A stretch of 35,401 bases of DNA. It comes from Candidatus Iainarchaeum sp. (GTDB lineage Archaea; Iainarchaeota; Iainarchaeia; Iainarchaeales; GCA-2688035). The notes beneath the pieces were generated by a model that worked only from the letters and a program-made list of their open reading frames with translations, made no database searches and was not told the origin of the DNA. Shown here piece by piece: positions 10,859-35,401 of the stretch (positions within the stretch are counted from its first letter, which is position 1; every line of letters starts with the position of its first letter). The stretch spans positions 1-35,401 of the forward strand of contig NZBU01000011.1 in NCBI GenBank assembly GCA_002688035.1. Direction: 5' to 3'. The position numbers and the translations under genes are program-made.

Positions 10859-10891
10859 CGAAATCACCAAAATAAAAGAATGCATTTCTTA

Positions 10892-16115: not shown

Positions 16116-16119
16116 TCAC

Positions 16120-16698: not shown

Positions 16699-19600
16699 GT
16701 GGTAATGGAGAAACTTGCAGGAGTATACACCGGCTTGGAAGACAAGTACTACGGCTTCCTTGACTTTCTAGAAGGAAAAGGAATCCCTGTTTACGCTTAC
16801 AACGATTTTTTAGAGGGCAAAGGTATACCGGCTTTTCCTTTCACCATTGCACTGCTCTTAATTCTAATTGTGGCCATTTCTGCACTTGCAACAGTTGGCA
16901 CAAGTCTCAATCCAACAATTTCATTCAACTTTGAAAACCAGTTCCAAGAATCTGTGAGCGGAGTAACAATTACTGCGCGAGACCTTGGGGGCAGAAAGCT
17001 GGGGGAGAAAACTGTTAGCGATGGAGGCACAATGGAACTCCAGGGAATTGGAATCGGAACCACCATCGAACTTACTGCAGAGAAAGATGGTTACAAGACC
17101 ACTACTTACAATATTCAAATAAAGAAAGAAAATAATTCTGCCAGCATCTCGTTGGAACAAAACATCAAAACAATTAACGCTACCTTAACGCTAACTGATG
17201 AGACAAGCGGGGACGGAATAGCAAACGCGCATGTTGTTGCGCAGTGGAAAACTCTCTCCATCGACCAGTACACAGACGGAACCGGGAAAGTTTCTTTGGC
17301 CGGAATTCCTGAGGGAGTACAGGTCAGTGTAAGGGTTGACGCAGAAGCCTACGAAACTTTAATCGATAATCTCTCATTTTTCGAGAACGAGGATAAAACT
17401 GTAACACTTAGCCCAAAAGGAATTTCACTGCAGGGATTAAGCAAGATTCTGATCAGTGTTAAGGATGAAGAAGGAAGCATTGTCAGAGGCGCAAAGGTTA
17501 TAATCCGGGACAACACAAATGACGGAATCCTATTTGACGATGTTGCAGTGGACGGAGAATATTACGCAGAGATTCCAAAGGGAACAAGCATCAGGCTTAC
17601 AGTTCAAAAAGACGGTTTCCTGCGATATGACTCCTCACTAGAACAGGAGAACAGAACAATCAGACAGGATGAAGAGCTCTGGGACATCGTGCTAGTACAG
17701 GGTGGAGAGAAGCTAAATGTGCTAGTTTATGCTGAAGGGAATGTTCCACTAGGGAATGCAGAAGTTCAACTCTACAACCTAGAGAATGTAATGCTTGACT
17801 CAGCCACAACAGGCTTTGGGGGTTCAGTAGAATTCACAGACTTGAATGGCGAACAATTTTATGTTACAGCCTGGAGAGACGGCTACCTCCCTGCAAGAAA
17901 ACTCGTTAATGTTAATGAAACAGAGCAAACCGCTCTAGTACTTGAAGCAAGCGACCCACTAAACAGTGTTTCACTCTCAGTTTACGTTGTCAACTCAAAC
18001 CTGGGTGCTGCAAACGGGGCCCACTTAACATTTTGGGAAGCGCAGGGCGACGACCTATTACCTCTAGGAATACCAAGCAGAAGCACTGACATAACCGGTG
18101 CAGTAATAGGTGTAAAGGCTCCGCTTGACATAACCATTGCAGTTCACGCAACCAAGGACTTGGAGGAAGGTTGGGGCGAACACACAATACAAGCAGGGGC
18201 TCCAAACGAAATTAGAATAGAATTACTGCACTCTGTAACAGTTGTTGAAATAGAAATCTTTGACGAGGAAGGAAACCCTGTTGAGGGAGCAGTAACAATC
18301 AGAGCCCTGAATGGAGACTTGCTTTTTGAAGGCGAGATTTTAGATGGAAGTGTTTTCTTTGACGCAGAGGGAAACGAAAGAGTAAATGTTGAAGTTGTGG
18401 ATGCAGATGGACAGAGCTACAGCGAGCAAGTAAACATTTCAAGCGGACTTGCAACAATAAACCTCGGAGAAGAAGTCTTAGATAGTTTATCGCCAACAGT
18501 TTCTTTCGAAGGAATTTACAACAACGGCAATGAGAAAGTTGATGGAATAGTTAAAGGAGAATTTTACTGGTTAAAGTTTGAGCTTAATGTTCCCGAGGGA
18601 ACACCGCAAGCAGGACTGCACGTAAGACTTGGTGGAGACGAAATTGCTTTTGTTGACTCACAAGAATTTGGAGTAGTAGGATTTGATGCTATTGCATCAG
18701 ACTACTTTTTTGGCAGAAGTTATCAACCAGAACCAACCCCTGGAAATGAAAGTGCTGACAAGCAGAACAAAGGAGGAACAGGTTCACTAAACAAGTGGCT
18801 TGAACTCTACTTCAACAATCCTGCAAACACTGTTGTCGCAAAAGTAAAAGTTAAAGCAGAAACAATTCTGCTGAACAGAGAAATAGAAGTGCATTACAGG
18901 GCCTGGGGCAGAGTCGGAACAGACTACTACAGACAGCCTGTTGACACAGAACTTGGAAACGATTTGTTCTCAGAATCCAAGACAGCTCTTTACGCTGAAA
19001 CTTTGGTGGATAGAATAAGTGTGTTTGAGTCAGAGGCAACATGCCAAGACAGTCTCTGTACAGCATACAGGTTTGTGGATGCAGATGGTCTTTACATTGA
19101 ACCAGATCAGTTCAAGCCAGTAACAGGAAACACTTATGCTTTAGAAATAGATTTGAGGGCAAGAAAGCAGGTCACAGCAAGCCTAAAGCTTGACACAAGC
19201 AAGACGGCTCCTTCACTCTACTTTACAGGACATGAAATAGATTCATTTGATAATGTTCCAAGCCCCGCAAGCCTTGCAGAGGAACTTCCTGTTGACACAG
19301 ACCTAACACTCTCAGGCTACATAGAGGATCTGCCTGCATCAATCATTGACTCAGAGCTTGAGACAAACCCTTATGGTTTCAGTGAGAACGCAAGCACAGA
19401 CACATCCCTTACAATCTCACAAATAAACATTCTGCCAGGACAGCAGAGAACTGTTCGCGTGTACTTTAGGGCAGATGTAGCAGGAGACACGTTCATCAAC
19501 ACGCAGGCAATAGCAGATAGCGATGTTGTAAACAAAGACTTTAGGTTTAGAATTAACACTGCAAGAGAACTTGCCCTAAGCGTTTCTCCATCAGAAGTTT

Positions 19601-22600
19601 CGGTTGGAGAAGACTTTACTGTAAGAGTAAAGGATGATGCAACAGGATCAAATATTACAAATGCAACCTTGCACCTCAAGAACAGCGAAGGAGAAATCGT
19701 TACCTCCATTGTTGGAAATGGCCGCGCAGGCAGAGGAGCAAACGGAAACTACACTTTCAAAAACAATTTGGACCCAGGACTCTACAAGTTAGAGGCAATG
19801 GCAAAGGATTACACACAAACCGAACTTGAAATCCCTATTGGGCAAGACAAGTTACTTGAATTGAAACCAGAGTTAAAGATAAGGGTTGAGAAGGGACAGA
19901 CTCAGGGTAATGTTGGAACTGCTTTGAAGAATCTCTCTGAGATGCCAATCAATTCTATAACTTATGAACTTGAAAGATCAGAGGATTTCCCGGAAGAATT
20001 CTATGTAACAGTTGAAGTTCCACCTTCTTTGAATGCGAGGCAGGAAGGCAGGATAACTGTTCATGTTGAAGTGGATACAGAGGAAGATTTGGAGAAGAGC
20101 TTGCACGGAGAACTAACTCTGATTGTTAAGGGTTCTGTTGCAGGAGAATTTCCAACAAAGACCGAGAGCAAAGTACTAATCGATTACAACAAGAAACTTG
20201 ACTCTGACTGCTTAAGGTTTGACAAGGATGAAATAAGGGTAAAGCTTATTGGTAGGGCAGGAAGCTCTGCATCCGAAGACCTTGAAATTGAGAACAAGTG
20301 TGGAGAACAACTCTCGCTAAGAACAAAGGTAAGTGAAGGTGAACAGGATCCAAATCTCGAGGTAAGCGCAAACCCTGTTTCAATAAAATCTGATGAAACA
20401 GAAGTAATCAAAGTAAATATTTTGAATAGGATTGAAAGAAATCCATCTTTAACTAGGGAAGCAGAGTTCACACTAATGCTGGAGTCCAACAAGATAAGCA
20501 AAAGCATTTCAGTTATTGTGGAGCTTTGGAACCCAAGAGTTAATCTTGCATATCCTCCAAACGTTTCACTATGGCTTGCGAGAAGGCAAGGCGCAAACAT
20601 TGCAACAGACAACCAGTCTCTCTTCCTGAGGAACACGGGTAGAGCACCAATAACATCGTTCAGACTTGCGATTGAGGATGAAACCTACAAGCAATACGCA
20701 GGGCTTAGAGTAAACATGCGGCCTAGAAGTGTTGATCATGCGACAATACAGCCTGGGCAGCCACTCCTCCCAACTAGATCTGTTCACGCAGAGTTCTCAG
20801 GGCAAACAGCATTCACACAGCCAGTGCAGGGCTATGTATCCTTCTCAGGAGTAGTAATGGGTCGACAATACCCACTTGGAAAAACAGGAGTAGCTGTGAA
20901 CTATGGTGGATTCAACTGCCTGCAACTAAGCTCTGATGTTGCAATGAACTTTGCAAGCAAAGCAAGCTATGGCACACATTCAAAAGAAATAACTCTAACA
21001 AACAAGTGTGCAGAAGCAATTCGTGTTAGAACTGTTGAGCCAAGACAAATACAAGGCAATACCCTCTCAATTATTCCAAATGACATTGTCATACAACCGC
21101 AGCAACAGCAAAAAGCAGCGCTCCAACTTACGGTTGCAAAAGAAACTCGCTTTAGAACGATTAAGGTAAAGGCACAAGGATTACTTGTTAGAACGCAACA
21201 GTTTATTGAATCAAACGAACTTCCAATAACAATTGACATTGGAGAGAAAGCCACTACAAAAGAAGGAAAAGCAACAACTGAGAGAACTGTGAAAGTTTGT
21301 GGAGAGGATGGTGGAGAGAGAAAGATTACTTTCCCAAAATTCTCAAGCGATTGTTCACAGGGCTATTGTGATGCAAAGCAATTAGCACAGTTTGTTGCAA
21401 AAGAAGTTGACAACACTATTAAGAGGGCAAAGCAAGCCGTGCAAAGAGGAGAGCAAAATGCTAGGAACTTCCCTGGTTGCGCAAACCAATCACACTGCAG
21501 CTTCTCAACAATGGGCATAAACCTGCAGCCAATGGTTGTGTTCATGCAGCTTGACGCAATGACGCCAGAAGTTGTAAGGCATGAGATACAGAACGGAAGT
21601 TTTAACGAGCTTAAGGGAATATCAAGCGTTGCGCAGGGCGAAAAGCGCTTTGAGGATATTGGGGACACAGGATTTGACTATGGCGCAGTGCACTTAGGAG
21701 GATTGTTTAGGGGCTGTGGAAAGTACAGCATCCAAGTTGATGGAGCATTCCAAGTAGTGAACAATGAGATACTTGAGGAACACGTTGTTATCACAGTTAA
21801 CCAGATTGATGAAAGAAAGATAACGCCAGAATGTGAGAACAAGATACAGAACATTGCTAACTTCCTGCCATTAGATGAAGAATATACTAGCACAGAGAAC
21901 TATGATAGTTGGCCAGGCTTGGTTTGGTATGAGGACAACAAGCTTGCTGATGCCGCAGAAGAGTTTGCAGACAGACTATTCAAAGCAAAGGGGCCAAGGC
22001 TTGTTAAATCAAGGCAAGACAACAACCTCAAGATTGTTTTAGGGCAAACAGAGGGCTCACTTGTAAGAGTAGAAATTGAGGGAGCTGGAGACAGTGATGA
22101 GGCAAAAGTTGTAACAGCCTACATCAACGAGGTTGCAGAATCCAATTTGGGAAAAGTTGCAAAAGAGGCTGCGGAAGCAATATTCGCACTAAAAAGTGGA
22201 ATCATAAAGGGTTGTATTGATCCAAATGACCCACCACTATACTTCCTTATTGAAGAAGCAGAGTTTATTGACAAGCTTTATGGAAAGCTGGAAATTTCTG
22301 CCGACCAGGACACAATCCAAATTAATGCACAAGAACAGTGTATTGACTTCAATGTTACTAGCAAGCTCAAGGACGAGCCAGTTGTACTTAAAACAAACTT
22401 TACTGATAAAGCAACTGCTGAAGAAAAAGTCCGAACTGGAATTGCAGCAGTAAGAATTAGAGACAAGAAAGGAGAACTGCTCCTGGAGGAGCTTGCTGCA
22501 GATAATACTGCAGGGGAAACAGATGAGATAGAGCTTTCAACCAAGACCGAGAAGGAAGAGCGCTACAAGGTAGAACTCAAGCTTTGTGTGGAGGGTGATG

Positions 22601-25224
22601 ACTACTTCCCACTTGCAGCAGAGAACATTGGAAGCATAAAAATTACAGCTGAAAGCCGCCTGGCGAGCATTGCCGACAGGAAGACAGAGCCACTTGAAAT
22701 AAAGATAGAGGCTTGTGGCCTACATCCATATGACCTGGTTAAAAAGATGGCTGGCGTAAAGCTTGAGGAAATTGAAAAGAAGCCTGACAAAAAATTTATA
22801 GCTTATGCAACAATTGGCTGGAAAGGAAAGCCAGATGACAAGATTGATATAAGTGTTGTGCAAAGGGCACTAGCAGCTGAACTTGCGCAGAATGAAGCAG
22901 AGAAAAGACTTGGAAAAGGAAAGGGTAGTCCAGGAGCCAGCTGGCCAACATATATGACGGAACTTGCCTGGAGAAGACTTGGAGGAATATGGGGCGGATA
23001 CTTTATCCCCTGTGCAATAACCTCTGCGATTTACGGTGCAATAATGCACTTTGGTATTGGAGCAATATGGGACGTTGGATTTGACTGTGCTCTACCTGCA
23101 ATCTGGCAGACAAAAGACGTGCTGAAAGACTTTGGTGGAGCCGCAAAAGAAATTGTTGAAGGAGTAGAGAGTTTTATTAGAGCAATACCTCTTATTGGAG
23201 AATGGTTAGTTGGAACCGGAGAGGACGAACCATTACTTGACAAAACAAGCGCAGAAGCAAAAGCAAGTAACTTCCAAGAAACTGTTTTGCCACCGGCTGT
23301 TGCAGGGGTACTTACAAAAAGCGCACTATCTGTTGTAAAGAACGGAGGCGCAGCAATAGCCACAGGAAGTGCTGAAGTAGCTGGTAAACAGGTTGCTGCA
23401 ACAGTATTTAATACACTCAAAAAAACAAACTTGCAAAGTCTTGCGGTAGCAGCTGCAGGAGGAGATACCGCAGCCGCAGATCTTTTGAAAGAAATGCAGG
23501 AAGCCTATGCAAAGAAAGTTGCGACGAATATTGTGTCTGCTGGAGCCGCTGATCCAAAGAACGTGAGATTTATTGATGACGCTTTACTACCTTCAGCACA
23601 AAAAGCTTATGGGGAAGTTGGAACAGAAGTCAACGAATTGCTGATCCAGAATGCTTCGAAGTTGAGTGGACCACCATCAACTGCGTTTAATGACATTAGA
23701 AAAAATGCTGTTAATGGCTTAATTGATGAAGGTGCAATCGCAGATACTGCAAGTGATGGAATCTCAAGAAGATTATCTGAAAGAATTGTGACAACTAAAG
23801 CTGATGCCGATGCCCTTATCAAAAAGTTTAGAGCGGATACTAGAAGAACTTTTAGAGAAAATGTTAGATCACAACTGGGTCAACAATTTGATTCAAGCAC
23901 TGAATTTAGAAAAGTATATGATGATGCTTCAAGTGGTTTGAGAAAAGAAGTTGATAAAGTTCTAAATAAGGTGAGCAGAAACCAAATACCTTTCGATGAA
24001 GTAGTAAGTCCTGTGACCGAACAAGTAACTACAATTACATATATTGGAAGCGAAAGAACTAGGGTCCCAGTAACAACAACGAAAACACAAATAACAGGCT
24101 GGAAAGTCAGTGCTGAAATAAGTGAAAATACCATCGAAAAAGCCGGAAAGCGAGCAGTTAGAGAGATAGGATCTGGTCCGGCGGGAGATATTCTTACCAA
24201 GAGTGTTGTAAACAAAAAAATCGGAAAAGAATTCACTGAAACCATTATGGGCGGAGACGCGACAAAAGGAATCGGCGGAATCGCCGATGATATGATTGAT
24301 CCAAAGATAGGGGCAGGCAGGTTATCAAGATTAAAGACCAGTTTGAAGAATTGGAGAAGATTCGTGAACCTGAAAACCATGGGGAACATTGTAAAGAATC
24401 TTGCAAAGGGAATTGCAGGAGGCGCTCTTGCAAACTACGTTGGATACCTTGGATTCAATAAGTATTGGGACAAGGTTGGGCCAGAGCCAGTTGCGCCAAT
24501 GGACACTATAACTACTGCACAGGAAGAGTGCCCAGACAGAGATAATGATGGAAAGTGCAATGAGGATCCAGTGGACGGCATAGATAATGATGGTGACGGC
24601 TTGATTGATGAGGATTATCCATTACTAAAAAGTCAGGACATATTCAAAAACCAGACTTATATGATTACGATTACAAAAGACCAGTATGGAAGTAAATTCT
24701 ATAAGTTTGACAAACTAACAACACTTGCACACTTTGATCAAATGCAGAAAGCATTGAAGGAAGATAAAGCAGTACTGTGGGCAAGCGAGAATTGTAACAG
24801 ATTCTACAAGGAGGGTGTAGCTGTTGTTTTAGGAAACCTTGCACCTGTACCAGCAGAAGGAGTTGAACCACAGTATGTAATATTTTACTATGTTAACGCA
24901 CAAGCGATTGTGAAGGCAGCTGTTGGGGCTCCTGATGATCCTTCTGATGACCTACTTGAAGAAGATTTGATGGCAGTAATGATTGTACAAGCAACCAATG
25001 TTAATCCTTCAATGAAAGGCGAATGGTGGAAAGATGGAGAAGAGAATGTCGCTGGATACATTGATTTTGCTGCAGGCAGACTGAGGAATGCGCTTAAAAG
25101 AAATAGTTACGAGTTTGATGACGCAGTTAGAGACATTAAGAACGACCAAAGATATGTCTCACTTGCAGTGCAAACAAAGAACAGATGGGAAAAATTCAGG
25201 ATTGTAAAGGCTGAGTCCAGCTAA
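16699..25224 (+). CDS. Giant membrane-tethered Ig-like repeat protein A (2841 aa)
   Basis: Residues 1-47 form a cytoplasmic tail with the motif LEDKYY at 13-18 and a duplicated DFLEGKGIP (22-30 and 36-44). One helix (48-67) follows, so the rest is outside. Residues about 80-600 hold five or six carboxypeptidase-regulatory-like Ig domains with typical GA-x-V and DG-x-G turns. A central block has YRAWG at 733-737 and C782/C787, matched in giant B. Cysteine-paired modules lie at C1171-C1201 and C1407-C1437. The last third is helical, with a hydrophobic stretch near 2098-2135 (C2105, C2130), a glycine/alanine segment near 2562-2586, and an Asp-rich likely calcium loop at 2611-2640. There is no C-terminal anchor. 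Probably a surface stalk or adhesin; its partner is unknown. Placement after the ATPase-platform-pilin genes suggests a linked role. Confidence 0.88.
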   Translation: MVMEKLAGVYTGLEDKYYGFLDFLEGKGIPVYAYNDFLEGKGIPAFPFTIALLLILIVAISALATVGTSLNPTISFNFENQFQESVSGVTITARDLGGRKLGEKTVSDGGTMELQGIGIGTTIELTAEKDGYKTTTYNIQIKKENNSASISLEQNIKTINATLTLTDETSGDGIANAHVVAQWKTLSIDQYTDGTGKVSLAGIPEGVQVSVRVDAEAYETLIDNLSFFENEDKTVTLSPKGISLQGLSKILISVKDEEGSIVRGAKVIIRDNTNDGILFDDVAVDGEYYAEIPKGTSIRLTVQKDGFLRYDSSLEQENRTIRQDEELWDIVLVQGGEKLNVLVYAEGNVPLGNAEVQLYNLENVMLDSATTGFGGSVEFTDLNGEQFYVTAWRDGYLPARKLVNVNETEQTALVLEASDPLNSVSLSVYVVNSNLGAANGAHLTFWEAQGDDLLPLGIPSRSTDITGAVIGVKAPLDITIAVHATKDLEEGWGEHTIQAGAPNEIRIELLHSVTVVEIEIFDEEGNPVEGAVTIRALNGDLLFEGEILDGSVFFDAEGNERVNVEVVDADGQSYSEQVNISSGLATINLGEEVLDSLSPTVSFEGIYNNGNEKVDGIVKGEFYWLKFELNVPEGTPQAGLHVRLGGDEIAFVDSQEFGVVGFDAIASDYFFGRSYQPEPTPGNESADKQNKGGTGSLNKWLELYFNNPANTVVAKVKVKAETILLNREIEVHYRAWGRVGTDYYRQPVDTELGNDLFSESKTALYAETLVDRISVFESEATCQDSLCTAYRFVDADGLYIEPDQFKPVTGNTYALEIDLRARKQVTASLKLDTSKTAPSLYFTGHEIDSFDNVPSPASLAEELPVDTDLTLSGYIEDLPASIIDSELETNPYGFSENASTDTSLTISQINILPGQQRTVRVYFRADVAGDTFINTQAIADSDVVNKDFRFRINTARELALSVSPSEVSVGEDFTVRVKDDATGSNITNATLHLKNSEGEIVTSIVGNGRAGRGANGNYTFKNNLDPGLYKLEAMAKDYTQTELEIPIGQDKLLELKPELKIRVEKGQTQGNVGTALKNLSEMPINSITYELERSEDFPEEFYVTVEVPPSLNARQEGRITVHVEVDTEEDLEKSLHGELTLIVKGSVAGEFPTKTESKVLIDYNKKLDSDCLRFDKDEIRVKLIGRAGSSASEDLEIENKCGEQLSLRTKVSEGEQDPNLEVSANPVSIKSDETEVIKVNILNRIERNPSLTREAEFTLMLESNKISKSISVIVELWNPRVNLAYPPNVSLWLARRQGANIATDNQSLFLRNTGRAPITSFRLAIEDETYKQYAGLRVNMRPRSVDHATIQPGQPLLPTRSVHAEFSGQTAFTQPVQGYVSFSGVVMGRQYPLGKTGVAVNYGGFNCLQLSSDVAMNFASKASYGTHSKEITLTNKCAEAIRVRTVEPRQIQGNTLSIIPNDIVIQPQQQQKAALQLTVAKETRFRTIKVKAQGLLVRTQQFIESNELPITIDIGEKATTKEGKATTERTVKVCGEDGGERKITFPKFSSDCSQGYCDAKQLAQFVAKEVDNTIKRAKQAVQRGEQNARNFPGCANQSHCSFSTMGINLQPMVVFMQLDAMTPEVVRHEIQNGSFNELKGISSVAQGEKRFEDIGDTGFDYGAVHLGGLFRGCGKYSIQVDGAFQVVNNEILEEHVVITVNQIDERKITPECENKIQNIANFLPLDEEYTSTENYDSWPGLVWYEDNKLADAAEEFADRLFKAKGPRLVKSRQDNNLKIVLGQTEGSLVRVEIEGAGDSDEAKVVTAYINEVAESNLGKVAKEAAEAIFALKSGIIKGCIDPNDPPLYFLIEEAEFIDKLYGKLEISADQDTIQINAQEQCIDFNVTSKLKDEPVVLKTNFTDKATAEEKVRTGIAAVRIRDKKGELLLEELAADNTAGETDEIELSTKTEKEERYKVELKLCVEGDDYFPLAAENIGSIKITAESRLASIADRKTEPLEIKIEACGLHPYDLVKKMAGVKLEEIEKKPDKKFIAYATIGWKGKPDDKIDISVVQRALAAELAQNEAEKRLGKGKGSPGASWPTYMTELAWRRLGGIWGGYFIPCAITSAIYGAIMHFGIGAIWDVGFDCALPAIWQTKDVLKDFGGAAKEIVEGVESFIRAIPLIGEWLVGTGEDEPLLDKTSAEAKASNFQETVLPPAVAGVLTKSALSVVKNGGAAIATGSAEVAGKQVAATVFNTLKKTNLQSLAVAAAGGDTAAADLLKEMQEAYAKKVATNIVSAGAADPKNVRFIDDALLPSAQKAYGEVGTEVNELLIQNASKLSGPPSTAFNDIRKNAVNGLIDEGAIADTASDGISRRLSERIVTTKADADALIKKFRADTRRTFRENVRSQLGQQFDSSTEFRKVYDDASSGLRKEVDKVLNKVSRNQIPFDEVVSPVTEQVTTITYIGSERTRVPVTTTKTQITGWKVSAEISENTIEKAGKRAVREIGSGPAGDILTKSVVNKKIGKEFTETIMGGDATKGIGGIADDMIDPKIGAGRLSRLKTSLKNWRRFVNLKTMGNIVKNLAKGIAGGALANYVGYLGFNKYWDKVGPEPVAPMDTITTAQEECPDRDNDGKCNEDPVDGIDNDGDGLIDEDYPLLKSQDIFKNQTYMITITKDQYGSKFYKFDKLTTLAHFDQMQKALKEDKAVLWASENCNRFYKEGVAVVLGNLAPVPAEGVEPQYVIFYYVNAQAIVKAAVGAPDDPSDDLLEEDLMAVMIVQATNVNPSMKGEWWKDGEENVAGYIDFAAGRLRNALKRNSYEFDDAVRDIKNDQRYVSLAVQTKNRWEKFRIVKAESS

Positions 25225-25226
25225 AC

Positions 25227-25244
25227 AATATAAATATATAAAAG
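25227..25244 (+). promoter_or_regulatory. TATA region of the large pilin-like gene
   Basis: The A/T stretch contains ATATATAAAAG (25234-25244), about 26 bases before ATG 25264. There is no ribosome binding site, so a leaderless mRNA is likely. This makes the gene independently expressed although it lies only 39 bases after giant A. Confidence 0.5.
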
Positions 25245-25263
25245 AATAAACTAATTCTCTTGC

Positions 25264-26925
25264 ATGTTCCTAAACTCCGACAAAGGATTCAATCTTTTTA
25301 CTGCACTAGTGTCTTTTCTACTTATTGCACTAAGCGTTCTACTCATTAATGGAATGATTCAAAGCGAAAGAAGCGCTTCTACTCGAATTAGTCAGGAGCA
25401 AAGCATGGCTGAACTACAAGCAGTTGCAGATATGGCGAGAGCTGATGCAGTGCAAGTTTTCAATTATGGTTTGAGAAAAGCAATTGAGGATTGGATGACT
25501 GATCCACAAACAGGTGGAATCACACTAAACCTTTCGGATGAAAGCTGGGATGATATAAAGAAAAGTTTTGCAGAAGCAAAGTTTGGTGGTGCCGAGGGAA
25601 GAGAGTTCGCACGCTTTACCGCTTCAACCTTGACTGCGCTGTTCTACAGTGAGGCTCACTTCGGAAACTATGGTGTTTCACTGGAAGGGGAATCAACCAT
25701 GGAAGAAATGATTGCAAGGTTGACGGAGAAGAGTGTGGAGGAAGACGATTTTTTTGAAATTGTAGAGTGCCCTAACGGAGATCCAAGGAATTGCCCAAAA
25801 GGAACTTTTTATGTTAACCTAAAAGTTGCAAAGCTCACGCAGCAGGAGTACGAGAACTTGCCGCGCATTAGAGTCATCAACAAGTCTACACGAGATGAGA
25901 TAAAAGAAATTATTTTACCAAGAGCAAACTTCAGAATATATGTTCCGCTCAGAGTCTTTAAAGCAATTGCGGAAGCAAGGGCTCTTGCACACTTTCCACT
26001 AACAAACAATGGGGAAATAAACCCTGGTTCTGATCGCGGCCTTTTCTCCACAAGATTCCACAATGAGATAGAGGAAATGGGTCTTGGAATGTGTGATGCA
26101 GGTTACTGTAGTCCAAGAGGAAACCCGTTTAAGCCGCCTGCAAACCAGCAGTTCTCAGGGAGTGCTTGTCCAGAAGATGAACTTTATGGTGGAGAAGTAC
26201 TTGTTCCAGTACAACTGCCAAATAGGAACGTTGTCGAATATAATGCAAATGATCCAAACAGTGCTTCTCAAAAGAGTGCGAAAAGTGTCATGCAAAAAAT
26301 TGTAAAACAAAGAGTCTGCCAAGTAGCACAGGAAGCAAAGGATGGAGGCTGGATTGATTTTGCCGGGGCAGATGACAAGTTTGAGTTAGAAGCAGGACCT
26401 GACTGCCAGTTCCTAAAAGAGATGGATGTGATCGCAGAGTCAATGTCATCAAAAAATATTACTGCTGCAGAGGGATCTCCAAGTGGAAGCCCAGGAGGGG
26501 GTGGAAGTCCAGGTTATGGTTTGTGTCCGAACAATCCTATTAGAAAAATTGGACTTTACTTGGAAGGTGGAGAAATAAAAACTCCAGACATAAGTTTTAC
26601 CGATCTTCTTTGTGAAGGAGAAGGTGGAACAAATGGGCAAGCGCACTGCACTGAAATAAAAAAAGTAAGTGTGAAAATTTGGTTCAAAGAAACAAATCCA
26701 AATTACATGGTTGACAAGACATCGCAAACAGAAAGAATTTACAGCATTAGACTTTTGGACAATGCATATGTTCCATTCACTGCAAACAAGCAGCAAGGAT
26801 CTCTTGGTGCAACCTGTGCATACCACTCACAGCCACTAGATACTACTTGTCGCTTTGCAGAAGGGTGGACTTGCGCCACACAATTATCAAATGATTTGAA
26901 AGTTCAGGGTTGTGCGCCAGCCTAA
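25264..26925 (+). CDS. Large pilin-like protein, possible GspK-type tip subunit (553 aa)
   Basis: The N-terminus MFLNSDKGFNLFTALVSFLL has a basic KG site followed by F and a hydrophobic helix (about 10-29), then a polar amphipathic stretch (QSERSASTRISQEQSM). This is a type IV pilin-like layout with no glutamate at +5. At 553 residues it is far larger than the other pilins. GspK, the tip minor pseudopilin of type II secretion, is also oversized and likewise lacks the glutamate, so a tip role is plausible by analogy. A glycine/serine/proline linker lies near residue 403-418, and the final 140 residues are cysteine-rich. It sits between two giant genes. Another reading is an unrelated N-anchored surface protein. 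Confidence 0.75.
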   Translation: MFLNSDKGFNLFTALVSFLLIALSVLLINGMIQSERSASTRISQEQSMAELQAVADMARADAVQVFNYGLRKAIEDWMTDPQTGGITLNLSDESWDDIKKSFAEAKFGGAEGREFARFTASTLTALFYSEAHFGNYGVSLEGESTMEEMIARLTEKSVEEDDFFEIVECPNGDPRNCPKGTFYVNLKVAKLTQQEYENLPRIRVINKSTRDEIKEIILPRANFRIYVPLRVFKAIAEARALAHFPLTNNGEINPGSDRGLFSTRFHNEIEEMGLGMCDAGYCSPRGNPFKPPANQQFSGSACPEDELYGGEVLVPVQLPNRNVVEYNANDPNSASQKSAKSVMQKIVKQRVCQVAQEAKDGGWIDFAGADDKFELEAGPDCQFLKEMDVIAESMSSKNITAAEGSPSGSPGGGGSPGYGLCPNNPIRKIGLYLEGGEIKTPDISFTDLLCEGEGGTNGQAHCTEIKKVSVKIWFKETNPNYMVDKTSQTERIYSIRLLDNAYVPFTANKQQGSLGATCAYHSQPLDTTCRFAEGWTCATQLSNDLKVQGCAPA

Positions 26926-26953
26926 AAGACAAAAACAATTATAAACAAGGAAG

Positions 26954-26989
26954 ACCTATTCATTATCGATTTTCCTGTGGGGAATAGGT
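26954..26989. other. Inverted repeat between large pilin-like gene and giant B
   Basis: ACCTATTC (26954-26961) pairs with GAATAGGT (26982-26989) over a 20-base loop. It lies 29 bases after the stop at 26925 and about 18 bases before the TATA region of giant B. It may be an operator dyad or an RNA hairpin; there is no T-run after it, so it is not a standard terminator. Confidence 0.4.
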
Positions 26990-27006
26990 TAATAAAGATT
27001 AAATGA

Positions 27007-27017
27007 GATATAATAAT
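27007..27017 (+). promoter_or_regulatory. TATA box of giant B gene
   Basis: GATATAATAAT is centred about 29 bases before ATG 27041. With no ribosome binding site visible, a leaderless or near-leaderless mRNA is expected. Confidence 0.45.
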
Positions 27018-27040
27018 ATAGAGTTATAAAGTGAATAACC

Positions 27041-30000
27041 ATGGCCTTGAATGACGTTTATTTGCAACTCGAAGATAAGTACTATTCAGTCGTCGACTGG
27101 CTTGACAAAAAAGGCATTTCACTATACCCTTTGATTGATGCTATTGAATCAAAGAACATTCCTTCTTTTCCAGTTCTCACAATTATTGCTTTACTAATTG
27201 TTATCGCAATCGGATTTATTGCAATGACCCTTTTGGTTCCAACTGCGACAATTACTTTTGCTATAACAGATTCTGATGATGGTTTGGCGGTTTCAGGAGC
27301 CGAAATAACCGCGTCTTTTGGAGATCAAACTGTAACCGCACTAACAAATGATGACGGAATGGGCATTATTGTTTTGCCCTTGGGAGTTGATGTTACTATC
27401 AGCATTGTAAAAGAAGGGTTTGATGAGGAGACAACTTCCTTTACTGCAGATGCTTCGACTCAGAAGGCTATTATATTAATAAAAGAAATAGAGATGCTCT
27501 CGAAAACAATACAGTTGATGAACTCTAATACAAACGAGTTGCTTCAAAAACCAGTTACACTAAACTTTAGTTGTTCAAATCCAAGCGTTGATTTTACTGC
27601 AACAGAGAGTACAAGTAATGGTTTAATTGAATTGGATGTTCCTGCTGACTGTGGAAATCTTATTGCGCAGCCTGCAGCCGGCTTTAGTGTTGCTGATGGA
27701 ATAATTAGCATTGAGGATGCTGCCCCACAACTCTTACTGCAAGAGGATGCGGGAGAGACAGGAACTGTAGCAGTTTATGTTGAGGATGCTGAGGGAGAAA
27801 GCGTTGCAGGAGTAACTGTAAGATTATTGAGAAGCGATGGAGTAGAACAGCAGATAGAATACAGCAGTAGTGCTGGTTCAGCAGTTTTCGAGAAAATTCC
27901 AACAGGAAGCTACTACATCATAGTGCACGATAGACAGGGAAGATATGCAGAATTTGACAGTTCACTTTCAGGGGATGTGAAAAGCCTTGCTGTTAATGAG
28001 AGAATTGAATTTAGCATTGCGCTTGATGAGAGCGTTGCAGGTACAATAAAGGTTTTGGTAAAGGATTCTGAAACTCAGCAACCAGTTTCAAATGCACAAG
28101 TAAGACTTAAGAAAGACAATACTGTAAGAGACGCACAGTACACTGATGACGACGGAGAACTAGAGTTTAATGTTCAGGAGAACATTGGTTTTGATCTTGA
28201 AGTAAATCACGCTAGTTACCTTATTGCAACACTCAACAATGTGAGTCCTGGAACAAGTTTCAACGAAATTTTCCTAGAACCTGCGACCAGTGGAAACAGC
28301 CAAGCACTTGTAGTTGAGGTAAATGATTCTAGAGGAAATCCGATTGATGGGGTAAAGCTTGTTTTGAAAGAAAGCGATGGCACAATAGTTGGAAGTGCTA
28401 AGGTAACAGGCTTTGATGGGAAGGCAGAATTCACAAACCTGGCTTTGGAAACATACTATGTTTATGCAATAAAGAAGGGCTTTGAGGGAAAGAACAGCAA
28501 CCCAATCACAATACAGGCAAGACAAGACAACAGCCTCTTAATCGTACTTGATATTGGATTTGGAGACATTGAAGTAAAGGTTCTTGATGATAAGGGAGAG
28601 CCAGTGCAAGGCGCGCTAGTTGAAATGCACAACATTGTTTCCGAAGAACAAGAGGAAGAAGCAATTACAAACATTGAGGGGCTTGCAGTATTCAATGTAA
28701 GGGCTGACAAAAAGGTTTACTTTAGAATTGATGCAGATGACGCAATGCTCTACAATACTACGGCTGTTAGCCCTGATGCTGGCGCAAAGCTTACAAAAGA
28801 AGTAAGTGTTGTAAAGGATGTTACAAAGCTTGAAGTTGAATTACTTGGATTGTTCTTAGGTGGAGAAAAGACATTTGGGAGAACTGTGGCAGCAGGCCAA
28901 ACATATGTTGCAAAATTGCTGTTGAAGATTCCAAAAGGAAATAGTTTCAACAAAGCAGGCATACATATTAGAACTGGGAATAGTGAGGACGGCAGAATTA
29001 ACACAATGGAAGAGGATGACTTATACATAAAAGATGTTGATGCAGGAACCCTTGAGAAACTTAAAGGAACATCATTCTATCCCCCAACAGGCTATGGAGA
29101 GGACAGCAAGCACCTTACAACTGGAAATGCCAAATGGACAAATGTTGAGTGGAAAGAGGTAACACAAGGAGTTTACGAGCTTGAGGCTGAGATACAGGTC
29201 AAGGACAACGTGATTTTAGGAGAATTGCTCAAAATATTTTACAGAGGCTGGGGTAAAACTGGAGCATACACAAGATTCCCTGCTGACGCAGAACTTGGTG
29301 GACAAGAAGCAACAGCAAACAAACAAGCACTCTATGCAAACGCAAAGCTTGAAACATACACTGTTGGCCCAACAAACCTTTGTGATTCATTCTTCTGCAA
29401 GAGCTTTACAATAGAGGACTTGAGGAACAACACTAGAATGCGTGTTGTAAATGATTATCCTGCTTCAATCTCAAGCAATTACAAGCTGCGATTTTCAATC
29501 AACAGTATTGGAGATAAGCCACTCCAGAATGCTGAAATAGAAATCGGAAGTGAAAGTGATGGATTAAGGTTTACAAATTACCAAATAACAGATGTTCTTG
29601 GATCAAGCTCAAGCGGAGTAGTGGACGGCTATGTTCTCACAAAGACAATTGGAAACATTCAGAAGGGAAGCGTTGTATCAGGTTCAATCGAATTCGAAAC
29701 AGAGAAAGAGGGAACAAACAAGCTCACAATAATAATTAAGAGCGATCAAATCCCTGTGTTTGAGGATGGCATTGATGTAATGGTTGAAGCAGCAGATCAA
29801 CTCTCACTAGACATAGTACCAAAAGAAATTGTTCCAATGATTGACAACTTGCTTGTTGTAAGAGTAAGCGATGCAAACGAAAGCGGAGTAAGCAATGCGA
29901 TTGTTACTGCAAGCCTTGACAGTACCGTGGTGTTTAGTGGACAGAGCAATGGAGACGGCGAAGCAAGCTTTGAGCTTGAAGCACCTGTCCCAGGACAAGT

Positions 30001-33000
30001 TCTAACAGTAAAAGCAGAGAAAACAGGTTTCAAGCCAATAGAAACAGAAATCGCAATTGATAATAGTATATTACTGGTTACCCCTAGTGAGATAAAAGAA
30101 CTCTTGAATTCTATCCAATCAGAGCAAGAAGTTGGATTGCTACTTAGCAATATGACTGCGATAGGACTTGAAATAGCCGAGGTTACTACTAGCTCAGGAT
30201 TCAGAGACTTAGTGGAAATTTCATTTGAGAATGATCTTATTGGAAAAGATTTGCCGGTTAATAGTGATGAAAACACCTTTGTGACCATAGAATTAACAGA
30301 GGCAGGATTCCTAATTGACGAGCCAGTAACACTTAATGGTGCAATCTCCTTCTATATGAAAGGAGAGGGCATTGAAAGAACATTTGTGACAAACATTCCA
30401 ACCGAAGTAAGAATAGGATTGGGTGGAAATGTTGATGACAGTGACTGTTTAGAACTTATTCCAACCAAGTGGGAAATCGTTACAAGCAGTGACACAACAA
30501 AGAAGCTTGAATTAGAGTTTAAGAACAATTGTAAGGTTGACAATGAAGAAGTTCCACTGCGAGACCTCTCAGTTAAAATAAAGTCCAAGGAAGACAACAT
30601 GCTTGGAACCTTTGTTCTAACAAGCGATATTGCAGGCGGAAACACAGTTACCCTACAAGAGAACTATACCGTGATTACTCCACAGGTTTCAGCAGGACTT
30701 GAGACAACCCTTGAAATAGAGTTCACTCCAAGCAGCGGAATCGATAGTGAGGAAGCAGAGTATGACATTGTGTTTAAAGCAACCAACTTAGCACAAACAG
30801 AGGAAGAAGAGATAGAAAAAGAACTTCCAACAGAAGTATTCCTAAGCGACTTGGACAAATGTATAAAGGTTATTGCAACAGACCCAATTGAGATTAGAAC
30901 ACAGCCATGGAACACAGGTTATGGTCAATACCGTAACACTGGTTATGATCCAACTGGATTTGGTGGAAGCGGAAGCTATGGTGGAGGATACTCAGGCGGA
31001 AGTCTTTACCCTTACAGCAATTATGACGCTCCATACTATACCAGACAATACAATAACAATGACGAAGCTGCCTGGAAACATGGTTTGGAGAACAATGCAT
31101 TTAGAATAGAGAACACTTGTACTGTTTCAGTGGAAATTGATTTAGAAGTCGATCCACTGTTGAAAGCTGATGAGCCAAAGTTCTCTATTGACCCACAGGA
31201 AAGTAAGGACGTTGAACTCGAATCAGGATATAGAATGGGAAAATATACCGTTGATGTTAAAGCAAGAGTACTTGGAAGCAAGGACAAGTTTGCAAAAATT
31301 GAAACACTCAACGTCATTGTGAAACGGCCTGATGAAATTGATAGTGATTGCATAAAACTTGCTCCAACAAAAATCAAGTTGAACAACTTCCTTGGAAAAC
31401 CAGTTTCAGCAAAAATCTACAACTACTGTTATGACAGTGGAGTAATACTTGAGAAAACAGATAGAGTTATAGAATTCAAATGCCAGGTTCCAGGGCAACC
31501 AACCGGAACATTCAACTTTGCAGGAGTAGAAGGACAAAAGATTGAGTTGGCGAATGGTGGCTATTACCCAAGCGCTAGCGGCCCAGACCTATCAAGTGGA
31601 GGACTATACTCTCCAAACGAAAGTTATTCACGAAGTGGAGCTTATGGACAAGGCTATTATAACCAAACAGGACCAGGACAAGGATCATACTACCCAGGTT
31701 CAGAGTATCCTTATGGAAGCAACAACTGGGGTTATGCAGCCTCAGGTGCTGAAGGAACCTGCCCAGTAGTTGATAGTATCTATATTGTAGGAGAGCACAA
31801 GACAGGGGGCGAGGAAGGAAAGACAGTTCAAACCATAGAGTATGAGGTTAAGCCAAACATAAATTACAGAAAACAACTCTGCCAATATAAATCACAGCTA
31901 CCATTCCAAACAGTTGCAGGAGTAAGAATGACTGCTTCCTCTGCATTCTACAGAAGCAATATCAGAGCAACAGCAACAGTGCGCTATAGAAGTGCTTTCG
32001 GAGGTAGTGATTCAGCATACTTCCGCGTAATGATTGAGGATTTATGGGGCTTAGGTGAAACGATTGACGAGTGTATTTCAAAGGCCGGTGGAGGTATACC
32101 ACAAGAGTGCTGGGCAAAAACCAACACTAAAGGTAATCCAGTTGCACCAGTTGAAGCATGCATTAACAAGGGCGCAATGGATTCAACCAAGCAATGGACA
32201 CTTACAAAAGGATTTATTCCAAACTCAGAGTTTGTTGGAGACACTTACACATTCCTACCAAGTGAAGACGTACTGGTAATAAGGCCAGATGCCTGCGGTG
32301 GATTAGATAAGCTTGAGAACATTAAGGGTCAGGTAACACAGGGAGGAGTAACAGTAGGATTTAGTCCGGCAGAGAACTGTGGAAAAGCTTGGAAGATTAA
32401 GGCAACGATTAATAGGTCAGGAATGACTGCGCAGTGCGTGAAGATTGAGACAATGATCACAGCAGACATTGTCAGGCCAGGAACCTGGAGCAGTCCAAAG
32501 AAAACAACTATTCCAGTGAGACTCTTTGTGTTGAACAAGGGAGTGGATGCTAGCAAAGTAGACATTAAGACCTGTGAAGGAAAGACACCAGATGGCGATG
32601 GAGACGGCGATGATGAACAGCCTGATGACAAGATCCTAAAGTGCTCTAGCGGAGAAACTGGAGATAAAGTTTACAAGAAATATGGTTTCGACAAACTGTT
32701 ACTTGACTGGACAGTTGATGCAGTTGCAAAGGACGGAAGCTATGTTTGTGACGAAGTAAATAAGGATGATGGAACCCCAGAAACAAAAACAAAGGCCATC
32801 ACCAATTTCTGTGACGCACTGCAATTCAGCATCGAGCTAAACAAGAAAGGAACAGAGATTGACAACAAGCTTGGAGAAAAAGGAAGTTGGATTGGAGAAT
32901 TGGCCAGCGAAGATATTGTGAAAGAAGCAGTTGACTGTGAGAAAGATGATTGCGCCAACGAGTATAAGAATACCGAGAACCTGTTGAGATGGGTTAAGAA

Positions 33001-34750
33001 GCAGATTGTTGTAGAAGATGACGCTGCAAGCGATGAGAAAAATAAGAAACCAGTGTTCTTCCTGTCATCAAAGAATGACATTTTGAAAGAGGCCAGGGAA
33101 GACGTTATTAAAGCCCTAAAGGACGAGCTGAAAGACGTTAAAACAACCGGCACAAATTACGCTGAAATTGTTGAAAGCACTGATAAAGCATTAAACAGGA
33201 TTGCGAACGAGTCAGCAACCGAGCCATATAAGAGCTTGATAATTGGAATAGTTAAAGTTAAGGATCTGGATTGTACCGGAATTAATGAGAAGGTATGTGC
33301 TGCTATCGGAATAGATGCTCCAATAGTGAAGACTAAGAATAGCTTTGATCACAATGTACTAACATTCAACGAGTATAGAAGACTGCACAATGCGCTTTAT
33401 GAGGCACTAACTGAATCAGATGAAGCCAAGGATAGAGAAGACACGTGTAGAGACGAATCAAACACTACAACCACTGCTGAAAACAAAACTGAAGCTATGG
33501 AATGTGACGTAACACTGAGTGGAACAAAAGTCACAATAAAAACAAGCTTCCTTGTCGAACTACTGAACTCTACCAGCTTTACTATTGGAACACAGCACAC
33601 CAAAGACTTGGCAGAAGTCAAAGAAAATGTATTGAATAATGCTGCTGACTTAGGAACCGATTGGAAGATTAAAGACTGGTATCCAAAGAATGTTGAGTTC
33701 AACTCTTACTTGATTCAGGATGCTTACACCACAGGTTTGAGAGAAGCATTCAAAGAAGATTATAAATCAGTTGCAATGAATTCTTATGCAGATGAAGAGA
33801 AGTGGAAGTTTGAGGGTAAGGGCCTGAAAGCAGGGGACAGCAAAGAATTGGATGACCCAGGAAAATTCCCAATCCTAGTAAACTACAGTTGGGACAGCGA
33901 AGTGTTCACGATTGAATTTAGAAAAGGAACAGATCTTGACGACTTGGAGAAGTATGAGGATAATCCATTCTTCGAACTGCCATTCGATGGAGACCTTGGA
34001 AAGGGAGGGGAAAGAGCAGGTTATGGCGTGAGCTTCAAGGACGCTAAAGAACTTTACATTACTTATGATGAGAAACTCGAGGACGAGGATAACAAGAAGT
34101 TCTTCAATTCCAGTGATGGTTTGAAAGAAGTTGAATTCAAATACGGTGAGAAGTTTGCTGACACTATCTCAGGAACAATCCTTTCAGTTGACGGTGACAA
34201 GTTTATTTATAACCCATCAGTTCCAGTTGTTTTGGAGACTGAGCTTGAGAGTAGAAGTGGAAGTGAAGGACTGCTATACGAGCTTATTGGACCAGATGGA
34301 AAAGAGCTGGCACACAACACAGACTCACTCATACTATGGAAGAACGGAAGCAGCTTCTCAGATGGTAAAGTAAGTAAGACTTCTGGCCAAAACAGTTTGT
34401 GCCAAGAGGTTTCAAGAGAACACTATGGCTTTGTAAAGAGCTTCTCAAGCGACCAGGATATGAAAGGAGTAATCTTCACACCAGTAGCACACTTACACCA
34501 ACTCAGAGTATTTTGCTCACAAGCTGACGCAGACATCCAATCCACTGTTGATGGCGAGGAAGTTGATGAAATAAGCGTTGGAGCAGGCTACAGAAAAGAT
34601 GAAACACTGATAAAACTCAACGAGCCACAGGAGTCAACAGACTTCACACTAGAAAAATTCATTGAAGAAATAAAGAACAAGAAAGTCTGTGTAGACATCA
34701 AGGGCAATGACCTCAGATTGGTCTGGTATGCCAAAGGCTTGATAAGTTAA
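27041..34750 (+). CDS. Giant membrane-tethered Ig-like repeat protein B (2569 aa)
   Basis: A paralogue of giant A. Cytoplasmic tail 1-44 has LEDKYY at 10-15, then a helix at 45-66 and tandem carboxypeptidase-regulatory-like Ig domains to about 630. YRGWG at 734-738 and C781/C786 match giant A within one residue. Cysteine-paired modules lie at C1136-C1164, C1274-C1360 and C1437-C1463, two with the SDC(L/I) signature. Two glycine/tyrosine/serine/asparagine-rich segments (about 1291-1344 and 1505-1574) are absent from giant A. An Asp-rich loop (PDGDGDGDD) near 1850 may bind calcium. The final 700 residues are charged and mixed, without a C-terminal anchor. It is likely a surface stalk or adhesin. 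The start is ATG 27041; its mRNA is probably leaderless. Confidence 0.88.
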   Translation: MALNDVYLQLEDKYYSVVDWLDKKGISLYPLIDAIESKNIPSFPVLTIIALLIVIAIGFIAMTLLVPTATITFAITDSDDGLAVSGAEITASFGDQTVTALTNDDGMGIIVLPLGVDVTISIVKEGFDEETTSFTADASTQKAIILIKEIEMLSKTIQLMNSNTNELLQKPVTLNFSCSNPSVDFTATESTSNGLIELDVPADCGNLIAQPAAGFSVADGIISIEDAAPQLLLQEDAGETGTVAVYVEDAEGESVAGVTVRLLRSDGVEQQIEYSSSAGSAVFEKIPTGSYYIIVHDRQGRYAEFDSSLSGDVKSLAVNERIEFSIALDESVAGTIKVLVKDSETQQPVSNAQVRLKKDNTVRDAQYTDDDGELEFNVQENIGFDLEVNHASYLIATLNNVSPGTSFNEIFLEPATSGNSQALVVEVNDSRGNPIDGVKLVLKESDGTIVGSAKVTGFDGKAEFTNLALETYYVYAIKKGFEGKNSNPITIQARQDNSLLIVLDIGFGDIEVKVLDDKGEPVQGALVEMHNIVSEEQEEEAITNIEGLAVFNVRADKKVYFRIDADDAMLYNTTAVSPDAGAKLTKEVSVVKDVTKLEVELLGLFLGGEKTFGRTVAAGQTYVAKLLLKIPKGNSFNKAGIHIRTGNSEDGRINTMEEDDLYIKDVDAGTLEKLKGTSFYPPTGYGEDSKHLTTGNAKWTNVEWKEVTQGVYELEAEIQVKDNVILGELLKIFYRGWGKTGAYTRFPADAELGGQEATANKQALYANAKLETYTVGPTNLCDSFFCKSFTIEDLRNNTRMRVVNDYPASISSNYKLRFSINSIGDKPLQNAEIEIGSESDGLRFTNYQITDVLGSSSSGVVDGYVLTKTIGNIQKGSVVSGSIEFETEKEGTNKLTIIIKSDQIPVFEDGIDVMVEAADQLSLDIVPKEIVPMIDNLLVVRVSDANESGVSNAIVTASLDSTVVFSGQSNGDGEASFELEAPVPGQVLTVKAEKTGFKPIETEIAIDNSILLVTPSEIKELLNSIQSEQEVGLLLSNMTAIGLEIAEVTTSSGFRDLVEISFENDLIGKDLPVNSDENTFVTIELTEAGFLIDEPVTLNGAISFYMKGEGIERTFVTNIPTEVRIGLGGNVDDSDCLELIPTKWEIVTSSDTTKKLELEFKNNCKVDNEEVPLRDLSVKIKSKEDNMLGTFVLTSDIAGGNTVTLQENYTVITPQVSAGLETTLEIEFTPSSGIDSEEAEYDIVFKATNLAQTEEEEIEKELPTEVFLSDLDKCIKVIATDPIEIRTQPWNTGYGQYRNTGYDPTGFGGSGSYGGGYSGGSLYPYSNYDAPYYTRQYNNNDEAAWKHGLENNAFRIENTCTVSVEIDLEVDPLLKADEPKFSIDPQESKDVELESGYRMGKYTVDVKARVLGSKDKFAKIETLNVIVKRPDEIDSDCIKLAPTKIKLNNFLGKPVSAKIYNYCYDSGVILEKTDRVIEFKCQVPGQPTGTFNFAGVEGQKIELANGGYYPSASGPDLSSGGLYSPNESYSRSGAYGQGYYNQTGPGQGSYYPGSEYPYGSNNWGYAASGAEGTCPVVDSIYIVGEHKTGGEEGKTVQTIEYEVKPNINYRKQLCQYKSQLPFQTVAGVRMTASSAFYRSNIRATATVRYRSAFGGSDSAYFRVMIEDLWGLGETIDECISKAGGGIPQECWAKTNTKGNPVAPVEACINKGAMDSTKQWTLTKGFIPNSEFVGDTYTFLPSEDVLVIRPDACGGLDKLENIKGQVTQGGVTVGFSPAENCGKAWKIKATINRSGMTAQCVKIETMITADIVRPGTWSSPKKTTIPVRLFVLNKGVDASKVDIKTCEGKTPDGDGDGDDEQPDDKILKCSSGETGDKVYKKYGFDKLLLDWTVDAVAKDGSYVCDEVNKDDGTPETKTKAITNFCDALQFSIELNKKGTEIDNKLGEKGSWIGELASEDIVKEAVDCEKDDCANEYKNTENLLRWVKKQIVVEDDAASDEKNKKPVFFLSSKNDILKEAREDVIKALKDELKDVKTTGTNYAEIVESTDKALNRIANESATEPYKSLIIGIVKVKDLDCTGINEKVCAAIGIDAPIVKTKNSFDHNVLTFNEYRRLHNALYEALTESDEAKDREDTCRDESNTTTTAENKTEAMECDVTLSGTKVTIKTSFLVELLNSTSFTIGTQHTKDLAEVKENVLNNAADLGTDWKIKDWYPKNVEFNSYLIQDAYTTGLREAFKEDYKSVAMNSYADEEKWKFEGKGLKAGDSKELDDPGKFPILVNYSWDSEVFTIEFRKGTDLDDLEKYEDNPFFELPFDGDLGKGGERAGYGVSFKDAKELYITYDEKLEDEDNKKFFNSSDGLKEVEFKYGEKFADTISGTILSVDGDKFIYNPSVPVVLETELESRSGSEGLLYELIGPDGKELAHNTDSLILWKNGSSFSDGKVSKTSGQNSLCQEVSREHYGFVKSFSSDQDMKGVIFTPVAHLHQLRVFCSQADADIQSTVDGEEVDEISVGAGYRKDETLIKLNEPQESTDFTLEKFIEEIKNKKVCVDIKGNDLRLVWYAKGLIS

Positions 34751-34768
34751 AACTGTTTCTCTTTTCCC
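34751..34768 (+). terminator. Possible T-rich terminator after giant B
   Basis: A pyrimidine-rich stretch with TTT and TTTT runs follows the stop codon at once. The runs are short, so support is weak. Confidence 0.25.
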
Positions 34769-34792
34769 AGCAAAAGCTTTATTAAGAGGAAA

Positions 34793-34804
34793 AGTATTAA
34801 TACT
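34793..34804. promoter_or_regulatory. 12-bp palindrome, candidate promoter or operator of giant C
   Basis: AGTATTAATACT is a perfect palindrome centred about 40 bases before ATG 34839. If used as the TATA element, the transcript would start near 34825 with a leader of about 14 bases holding GGAAGAGA (34827-34834). It could equally be an operator site. Confidence 0.35.
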
Positions 34805-34838
34805 AAAAAAGTTAATTTATTAATTGGAAGAGATATAC

Positions 34839-35401
34839 ATGGACCTAAAGGATATCTACTATTCATGGGAAGATAAATGGTACAAATTCTTAGACAAGGT
34901 AGATGAAAAGGTTCCAATTTACAAGATTATAGAACCTGTTGACAAGATTGTTCCAAGCTTTGCGCTCATATTAATTCTTGTTGTAATTGCACTGCTCGGA
35001 ATTGGATTAACATTACTTTCACTAACTTCTGGAAGCGTTTTCTCTGTCGAAGTTTTGTATGAAGATGGAAACCCAGTTGAGAACGCAACTGTAAAAGCAT
35101 TTCTTGAGGGAGAAGAAGTATTCTCAGATGTAACAGATGCCTCGGGAAAAACAGGTTTCTCAGGAAGCTTACCACCTGGTTCAGAAGTAGAACTAAGAAT
35201 TTCTCGAGAAGGATATGAGGATTTAGTTGAAACCTTGACCCTAACCAACGCGGTTACAGAACAAAAATCATACTTACTCGAAATCGCGCTAAGAGAAGTA
35301 ACAATTTTGTTAAAGGATGAGTTCAACCAACCGATTAGAGAGCCGGTAACACTTTATTTTTCATGCCGCAACCCAAATGTGCAGGCTCCAAGCAGCCTAA
35401 C
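34839..35401 (+). CDS. Giant Ig-like repeat protein C, N-terminal part (runs off window)
   Basis: The frame from ATG 34839 stays open to the last base (187 complete codons). The product has the same plan as giants A and B: tail 1-40 with WEDKWY at 10-15, a helix at about 41-63, then a carboxypeptidase-regulatory-like Ig domain (about 66-140). The next domain starts with PVTLYFSCRNP, which matches PVTLNFSCSNP of giant B (near residue 170), so it is closest to giant B. The ATG lies 88 bases after giant B. A GGAAGAGA stretch sits four bases upstream of the ATG. Full length and function cannot be judged here. Confidence 0.85.
   Translation, partial: MDLKDIYYSWEDKWYKFLDKVDEKVPIYKIIEPVDKIVPSFALILILVVIALLGIGLTLLSLTSGSVFSVEVLYEDGNPVENATVKAFLEGEEVFSDVTDASGKTGFSGSLPPGSEVELRISREGYEDLVETLTLTNAVTEQKSYLLEIALREVTILLKDEFNQPIREPVTLYFSCRNPNVQAPSSL

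Follow-up and report, generated by a model that had tools for sequence, protein, structure and literature searches.

Giant surface proteins encoded with type IV pilus genes share a conserved N-terminal tail in two archaeal phyla

Three giant surface proteins of Candidatus Iainarchaeum sp. begin with a homologous N-terminal tail followed by one membrane helix, as can be read directly in the sequence of the window (the whole stretch of DNA analysed, 35,401 bases, which is an entire contig whose end truncates giant 3). We judge the evidence to be about evenly poised for the reading that we prefer, in which the tail is a lineage-specific cytoplasmic adaptor that holds the giants, as external tethers, adhesins or anchors, to a partner in a pilus-like machine. 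The locus itself is best read as a type IV pilus system of archaea whose surface proteins include tethered giants, and its features (positions in the window, with strand) are as follows.

1623..6227, minus: secreted protein, 1,534 residues, with a C-terminal LPSLPE-helix-basic signal; candidate archaeosortase substrate
6240..6782, minus: small multi-spanning membrane protein, pilus side
6852..7625, plus: zinc-finger-like cytoplasmic protein, present at some loci, not all
7627..8379, minus: minor pilin-like protein
8370..8888, minus: minor pilin-like protein
8892..9524, minus: minor pilin-like protein
9528..10085, minus: minor pilin-like protein
10325..10885, minus: small pilin-like protein (NNKGQAYSTFKLLIAAIV...)
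10895..11452, minus: archaeosortase/exosortase-family protein; orthologues keep Cys and Arg motifs
11530..13806, plus: type IV pilus/archaellum-type ATPase (T2SSE); extended N-terminal region
13809..16115, plus: TadC-like platform protein (T2SSF match weak, under cut-off)
16099..16563, plus: small pilin-like protein
16699..25224, plus: giant surface protein 1 (type A), 2841 aa, CarboxypepD_reg-like repeats
16705..16836, plus: cytoplasmic tail of giant 1 (type A), repeats LDFLEGKGIPVY / NDFLEGKGIPAF (sequence, profile)
16837..16902, plus: single membrane helix of giant 1 (hydrophobic run; aligned helix predicted in giant 3)
25264..26925, plus: large pilin-like protein flanked by giants A and B; class III-like N-terminus DKG/FNLFTALVSFLLIALSVLLI
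27041..34750, plus: giant surface protein 2 (type B), 2569 aa, Ig/CarboxypepD_reg-like repeats
27041..27169, plus: cytoplasmic tail of giant 2 (type B) (sequence, profile)
27170..27235, plus: single membrane helix of giant 2 (hydrophobic run)
34839..35401, plus: giant surface protein 3 (type C/D), truncated at the contig end
34839..34961, plus: cytoplasmic tail of giant 3 (type C/D) (modelled helices 3-24 and 28-37)
34962..35018, plus: single membrane helix of giant 3 (modelled helix 40-60)

A DUF120/CTP-dependent riboflavin kinase domain joined to a winged-helix domain is also encoded, at 973-1620 (minus strand).

The tails read MEKLAGVYTGLEDKYYGFLDFLEGKGIPVYAYNDFLEGKGIPAF in giant 1 (16705-16836), MALNDVYLQLEDKYYSVVDWLDKKGISLYPLIDAIESKNIPSF in giant 2 (27041-27169) and MDLKDIYYSWEDKWYKFLDKVDEKVPIYKIIEPVDKIVPSF in giant 3 (34839-34961). 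The original prediction had given them 47, 44 and about 40 residues, with giant 1 starting at 16699; the tails themselves stand, at 41-44 residues, that of giant 1 being read here from an ATG at 16705, two codons downstream of the GTG at 16699. With giant 3 as query, its own genome returned giant 2 (E=9e-10) and giant 1 (E=6e-5), and these matches, together with profile matches at E down to 9e-30, indicate that the likeness is not due to chance. Approximately, the tail is a 13-14-residue motif repeated, in giant 1 as DFLEGKGIPVYAYN and then DFLEGKGIPAF; across 59 tails the scores at offsets of 13-14 residues greatly exceed those of shuffled sequences, a figure that describes the repeat rather than giving a probability, since the tails are related. 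In a profile of 30 tails (giant 3 numbering) Y7, E11 and P39 are invariant, and Y15, D19, P26 and F41 nearly so. Searches of Pfam, NCBIfam and PDB sequences returned no family, only single chance-level matches, in keeping with the earlier remark that the tail belongs to no named family, and we file it as a new, unnamed domain family. A literature search of open-licence papers found no description of the tail or of the locus.

It had also been supposed that the external domains diverge faster than the tail, and this proved correct. Among giants in the same gene position, the criterion by which the groups were mainly defined, the tail core is 53-58% identical in pairwise comparison, whereas the membrane helix reaches 26-29% and the first two segments of the ectodomain 21-28%, so that the tail is conserved about twice as well as the rest; between different paralogue groups the tail core retains 38-57% identity. 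One correction is needed, in that the ectodomains are partly related and not all unrelated: giants B, C and D and the copies dispersed elsewhere in the genomes form one family beyond the tail, and giant A has a separate ectodomain family.

Conservation extends far beyond the copies in the window. Of 87 genomes of the same phylum, 81 gave the tail in profile searches, including all 25 of good quality; it is a genuine conserved module. All six genomes without the tail have incomplete assemblies (in the two examined, G002 and G052, the contig stops beside the archaeosortase, and G084 is highly fragmented), and we therefore rejected them as evidence against linkage to the pilus genes. Outside the phylum the tail was found in 10 of about 203 archaeal genomes sampled; all ten belong to a second phylum-level group, in which a fuller search gave 14 of 19 genomes, and the tail was absent from the roughly 190 other archaea sampled. 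Two archaeal phyla among those sampled thus carry it. Most genomes encode several tail-bearing paralogues, and several in the second phylum show a single tail giant that nevertheless keeps the tail. Nearly all tail-bearing frames are giant unless truncated by a contig end, the exceptions seen being three second-phylum proteins of 131-156 residues in which a shortened tail and membrane helix are followed by one small domain (L062:16980-17372, L066:12057-12524, L079:1839-2234).

A structural model built from eight sequences (mean pLDDT 76.7) contains helices at 3-24 and 28-37, a membrane helix at 40-60 and then a transthyretin-like external domain, the tail and membrane helices being modelled at pLDDT of approximately 66-78. 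The tail is accordingly described here as two short helices predicted to be amphipathic; their hydrophobic faces are significant against shuffled residue order (p=0.005 and p=0.002). A fold search with this model matched the external beta-domain only (transthyretin/carboxypeptidase regulatory fold) and gave no match for the tail; a model of the last 989 residues of giant 2, with a mean pLDDT of 36, was set aside. Residues of the hydrophobic faces exchange freely and the invariant aromatic and acidic residues face elsewhere, the displacement of conserved Tyr, Glu and Asp from the hydrophobic face being significant for helix 2 (p=0.014) but not for helix 1 (p=0.086). Together with a mean net charge of about -2, this disfavours plain lipid binding by the tail. 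Lysine and arginine average 5.2 in the tail and 0.9 in the 20 residues past the helix, and because basic residues thus lie mostly on the tail side, and Ig-like and carboxypeptidase-regulatory-like repeats are expected outside the cell, an N-in topology is inferred. We further infer a tail placed on the inner surface of the membrane with its conserved polar-aromatic face presented to a protein, protein rather than lipid as its main partner, and a tethering role for the giants.

Two other functions were weighed against this anatomy. That the tail is a membrane-insertion or stop-transfer signal only, with no specific partner, would agree with its position directly before the membrane helix and with its amphipathic helices, but insertion hardly explains the invariant Tyr, Glu, Asp and Pro positions or the restriction to two phyla, and we regard this as highly improbable. 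The least probable of the readings considered treats the tail as a long leader, with the K-G-I-P before the helix as a prepilin-peptidase site from which the giants, at least those of type A, would be released as pilin-like proteins that enter the filament. Most type A giants do have K/R-G before the helix, and A24 peptidases are present, one of them adjoining a dispersed giant in the genome of the window; yet types B and C/D and the second phylum have no conserved basic-Gly pair, prolines follow at +2 and often at +5, KGIP also occurs upstream with no membrane helix after it, and leaders are not normally as conserved as this tail. Classification of the giants as pilins was likewise rejected on the alignments, in which a basic-Gly/Ala pair before the helix is not conserved and prolines start the helix.

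Cytoplasmic docking of the tail is supported by the gene context. The original prediction had tied the tail to pilus genes, and this is borne out by linkage to the ATPase and TadC in two archaeal phyla, although tail giants also occur elsewhere in the genomes. The ATPase and the nearest tail giant lie 14 kb or less apart (0.3 to 13.4 kb) in 27 of the 28 contigs that carry both, a sample picked partly for showing both genes and in which related genomes are not independent events; for contigs over 180 kb, 8 of 9 are linked. The exception, the near-complete genome G020, has its giants 434 kb from the ATPase on one 840-kb contig. Linkage of tail giants with ATPase/TadC, the pilin-like protein and the archaeosortase is common to both phyla, and loci with a single giant still carry the tail. 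The most constant neighbour of the giants is the large pilin-like protein, found within 0.9 kb of a giant wherever it was detected on the linkage contigs, G020 included. Most relatives have two divergent operons, one for the pilus (pilins, TadC and ATPase) and the other holding the archaeosortase, the pilin-like protein and at least one giant, up to several; the window shows a rearranged form, as does the ATPase contig of a relative, G008. The zinc protein is not constant at tail loci, although some have one. At 8 of 9 loci inspected, in both phyla, the last giant is followed by a series of small membrane proteins that have two to four helices (for example L018:7126-9318, L069:15702-18193, L073:14530-16640, L078:18186-19894), and related proteins lie further along in G094; the three tested matched no Pfam family. 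Some of these small proteins carry a motif resembling PIIV(K/Q)R(K/R)Y.GPESIYP.

Many genomes also encode one or more tail giants apart from the pilus locus, so that the tail is not confined to it. Nine such dispersed giants adjoin a Hel308-like helicase gene in a fixed position (L032, L034, L036, L037, L043-L046, L051), a housekeeping setting. An A24-type prepilin peptidase directly follows the dispersed giant in the genome of the window (L032:17416-18474, Pfam-confirmed), and a similar protein does so in G003 (L051:2697-3767). The possibility that the tail sits on unrelated proteins with no link to pilus genes is therefore realised only in part: it is found away from those genes, but the proteins are mostly paralogues, and one has a prepilin peptidase after it. 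That dispersed copies off the pilus genes keep the tail would also suit a self-association module, in which tails bundle the giants in one membrane patch with no pilus partner, as would the several tail-sharing paralogues of most genomes and the short, repeated amphipathic helices. We nevertheless consider such clustering quite improbable, since a tail kept by the single tail giant of several second-phylum genomes leaves it with homo-assembly only.

In the adaptor reading, a short helix-turn-helix tail on the inner membrane face would hold the giants there by contacting a common protein partner, either the motor or platform or membrane proteins encoded in the same module, and the giants would serve outside the cell, round the filament base, as long tethers, adhesins or anchors of the envelope. 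The N-terminal cytoplasmic tail of PilN, in the type IVa pilus, binds PilM; the giants resemble PilN in that a short conserved cytoplasmic tail leads into one membrane helix within a pilus system, a likeness of architecture, and differ from it in being thousands of residues long. In both groups of small, uncultured archaea, the shared tail of the giants and their position next to a pilus-type motor and a protein-sorting enzyme suggest a surface machine, not described before, in which one common tag ties the parts to the inside of the cell. More tentatively, and with less than even confidence, we propose that the pilus motor, a dedicated archaeosortase and the giants form one undescribed envelope machine of the two phyla, for which the repeated helix-KGIP tail would be a common docking code, recruiting as well those giants whose genes lie elsewhere in the genome. 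The ways in which DPANN archaea attach to their hosts and live with them are largely obscure and their surface proteins are mostly unannotated, and a tail present in every good-quality genome of one phylum offers a sequence handle on a giant surface set. Its conservation beside the pilus motor and archaeosortase in two phyla predicts that the giants act as one machine, and the tail is itself short enough to serve as a peptide in a direct search for its partner. The finding is wider than the original prediction could know, and the open-licence literature yielded no paper describing the tail.

In the pilus core, the ATPase matches PF00437 over cut-off (E=6e-17), its best NCBIfam matches being the archaellum FlaI and TadA models, under their cut-offs; the platform protein matches PF00482 at E=1.9e-4 (21.8 bits, against a cut-off of 25.2), its constant synteny with the ATPase supporting the assignment. 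Five pilin-like proteins on the minus strand span 7627-10885, and KG followed by Q or F and then a hydrophobic helix was read by eye in proteins 9528, 10325 and 25264. An A24 prepilin peptidase was detected over cut-off in all 11 genomes tested, that of the window included. Direct binding of the tail to the motor ATPase or the TadC platform, which would make the giants part of the pilus base and be analogous to the binding of PilM by the PilN tail, is favoured by the occurrence of this recognisable pair of cytoplasm-facing proteins at almost all the tail loci read, in the two phyla alike, and by the N-terminal region of the ATPase, found in about 84 of the approximately 203 sampled genomes outside the phylum of the window, which is 40-48% identical in the second tail-bearing phylum and 34% or less identical elsewhere outside the first. 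However, the same ATPase/TadC subfamily occurs in many other archaea without tails, and the dispersed giants and those of G020 are unlinked to the ATPase; we regard this direct contact as possible in principle but unlikely, and do not favour it over a partner within the module.

In 11 tail-less genomes of other phyla, the stretches around the ATPase usually have TadC nearby and contain no archaeosortase, no pilin-like protein of the family and no tail giant. From this absence, the archaeosortase, the pilin-like protein and the giants, and probably the small membrane proteins, appear to have joined, as one module, an ATPase/TadC core that is older. As the ATPase/TadC pair is far more widespread than the tail, a partner among the module proteins (archaeosortase, pilin-like protein or small membrane proteins) is as likely as the motor or platform. 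The added-module layout fits equally a lineage-specific contact with the core and a contact inside the module.

The archaeosortase, protein 10895, scores 39.6 bits against a cut-off of 23 for family TIGR04178, and its orthologues keep the LC(T/A)G-like and N..RI motifs that contain the conserved Cys and Arg. Unlike the family in general, it sits inside a pilus and giant-protein locus. The putative substrate signal, LPxxPE, lies on a neighbouring secreted protein rather than on the giants, from which an LPxxPE-like C-terminal signal was absent where their ends were read. This large secreted protein on the pilus side, with its LPSLPE-helix-basic end, is a putative archaeosortase substrate, and secreted proteins of about 1,500 residues with an LPxxPE-like motif, helix and basic end occur in both phyla (window 1623-6227, minus strand; L065:3782-8392, L068:2063-6796, L070:1868-6253, L075:2598-7481). 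In Methanococcus maripaludis the archaeosortase ArtE is required for natural transformation, as is a type IV-like pilus (PMC10133366), which provides a precedent for a functional link between archaeosortase and pilus.

Complex loci of archaeal type IV pilus systems, such as that of the Epd pilus of Methanococcus (Makarova, Koonin and Albers 2016, PMC4858521), have in common with the present locus a T2SSE-type ATPase, a probable TadC-like platform and several pilin-like proteins with putative class III signals, and also large accessory surface proteins and a prepilin peptidase encoded elsewhere in the genome. The large proteins described in that paper have DUF2341 or C-terminal anchors, and the window locus differs from the systems described there in its N-terminally anchored giants, their shared tail and the archaeosortase within the locus; text searches of the paper returned no mention of DPANN. 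The pilus 'dark matter' islands of some DPANN genomes (Makarova et al. 2019, PMC6393860, Figure 2A) likewise include TadC, dark-matter proteins of pilin-like type and 'specific surface proteins', and the passages on these islands describe neither a shared cytoplasmic tail nor an archaeosortase at the loci.

The ATPase orthologue of G026 (L039:2316-6218) contains an intein with a LAGLIDADG domain. Matches to the ATPase are broken at about 482-495 in G003, G012, G038, G070 and G071, and at 552 in G039, which suggests the same kind of insertion.
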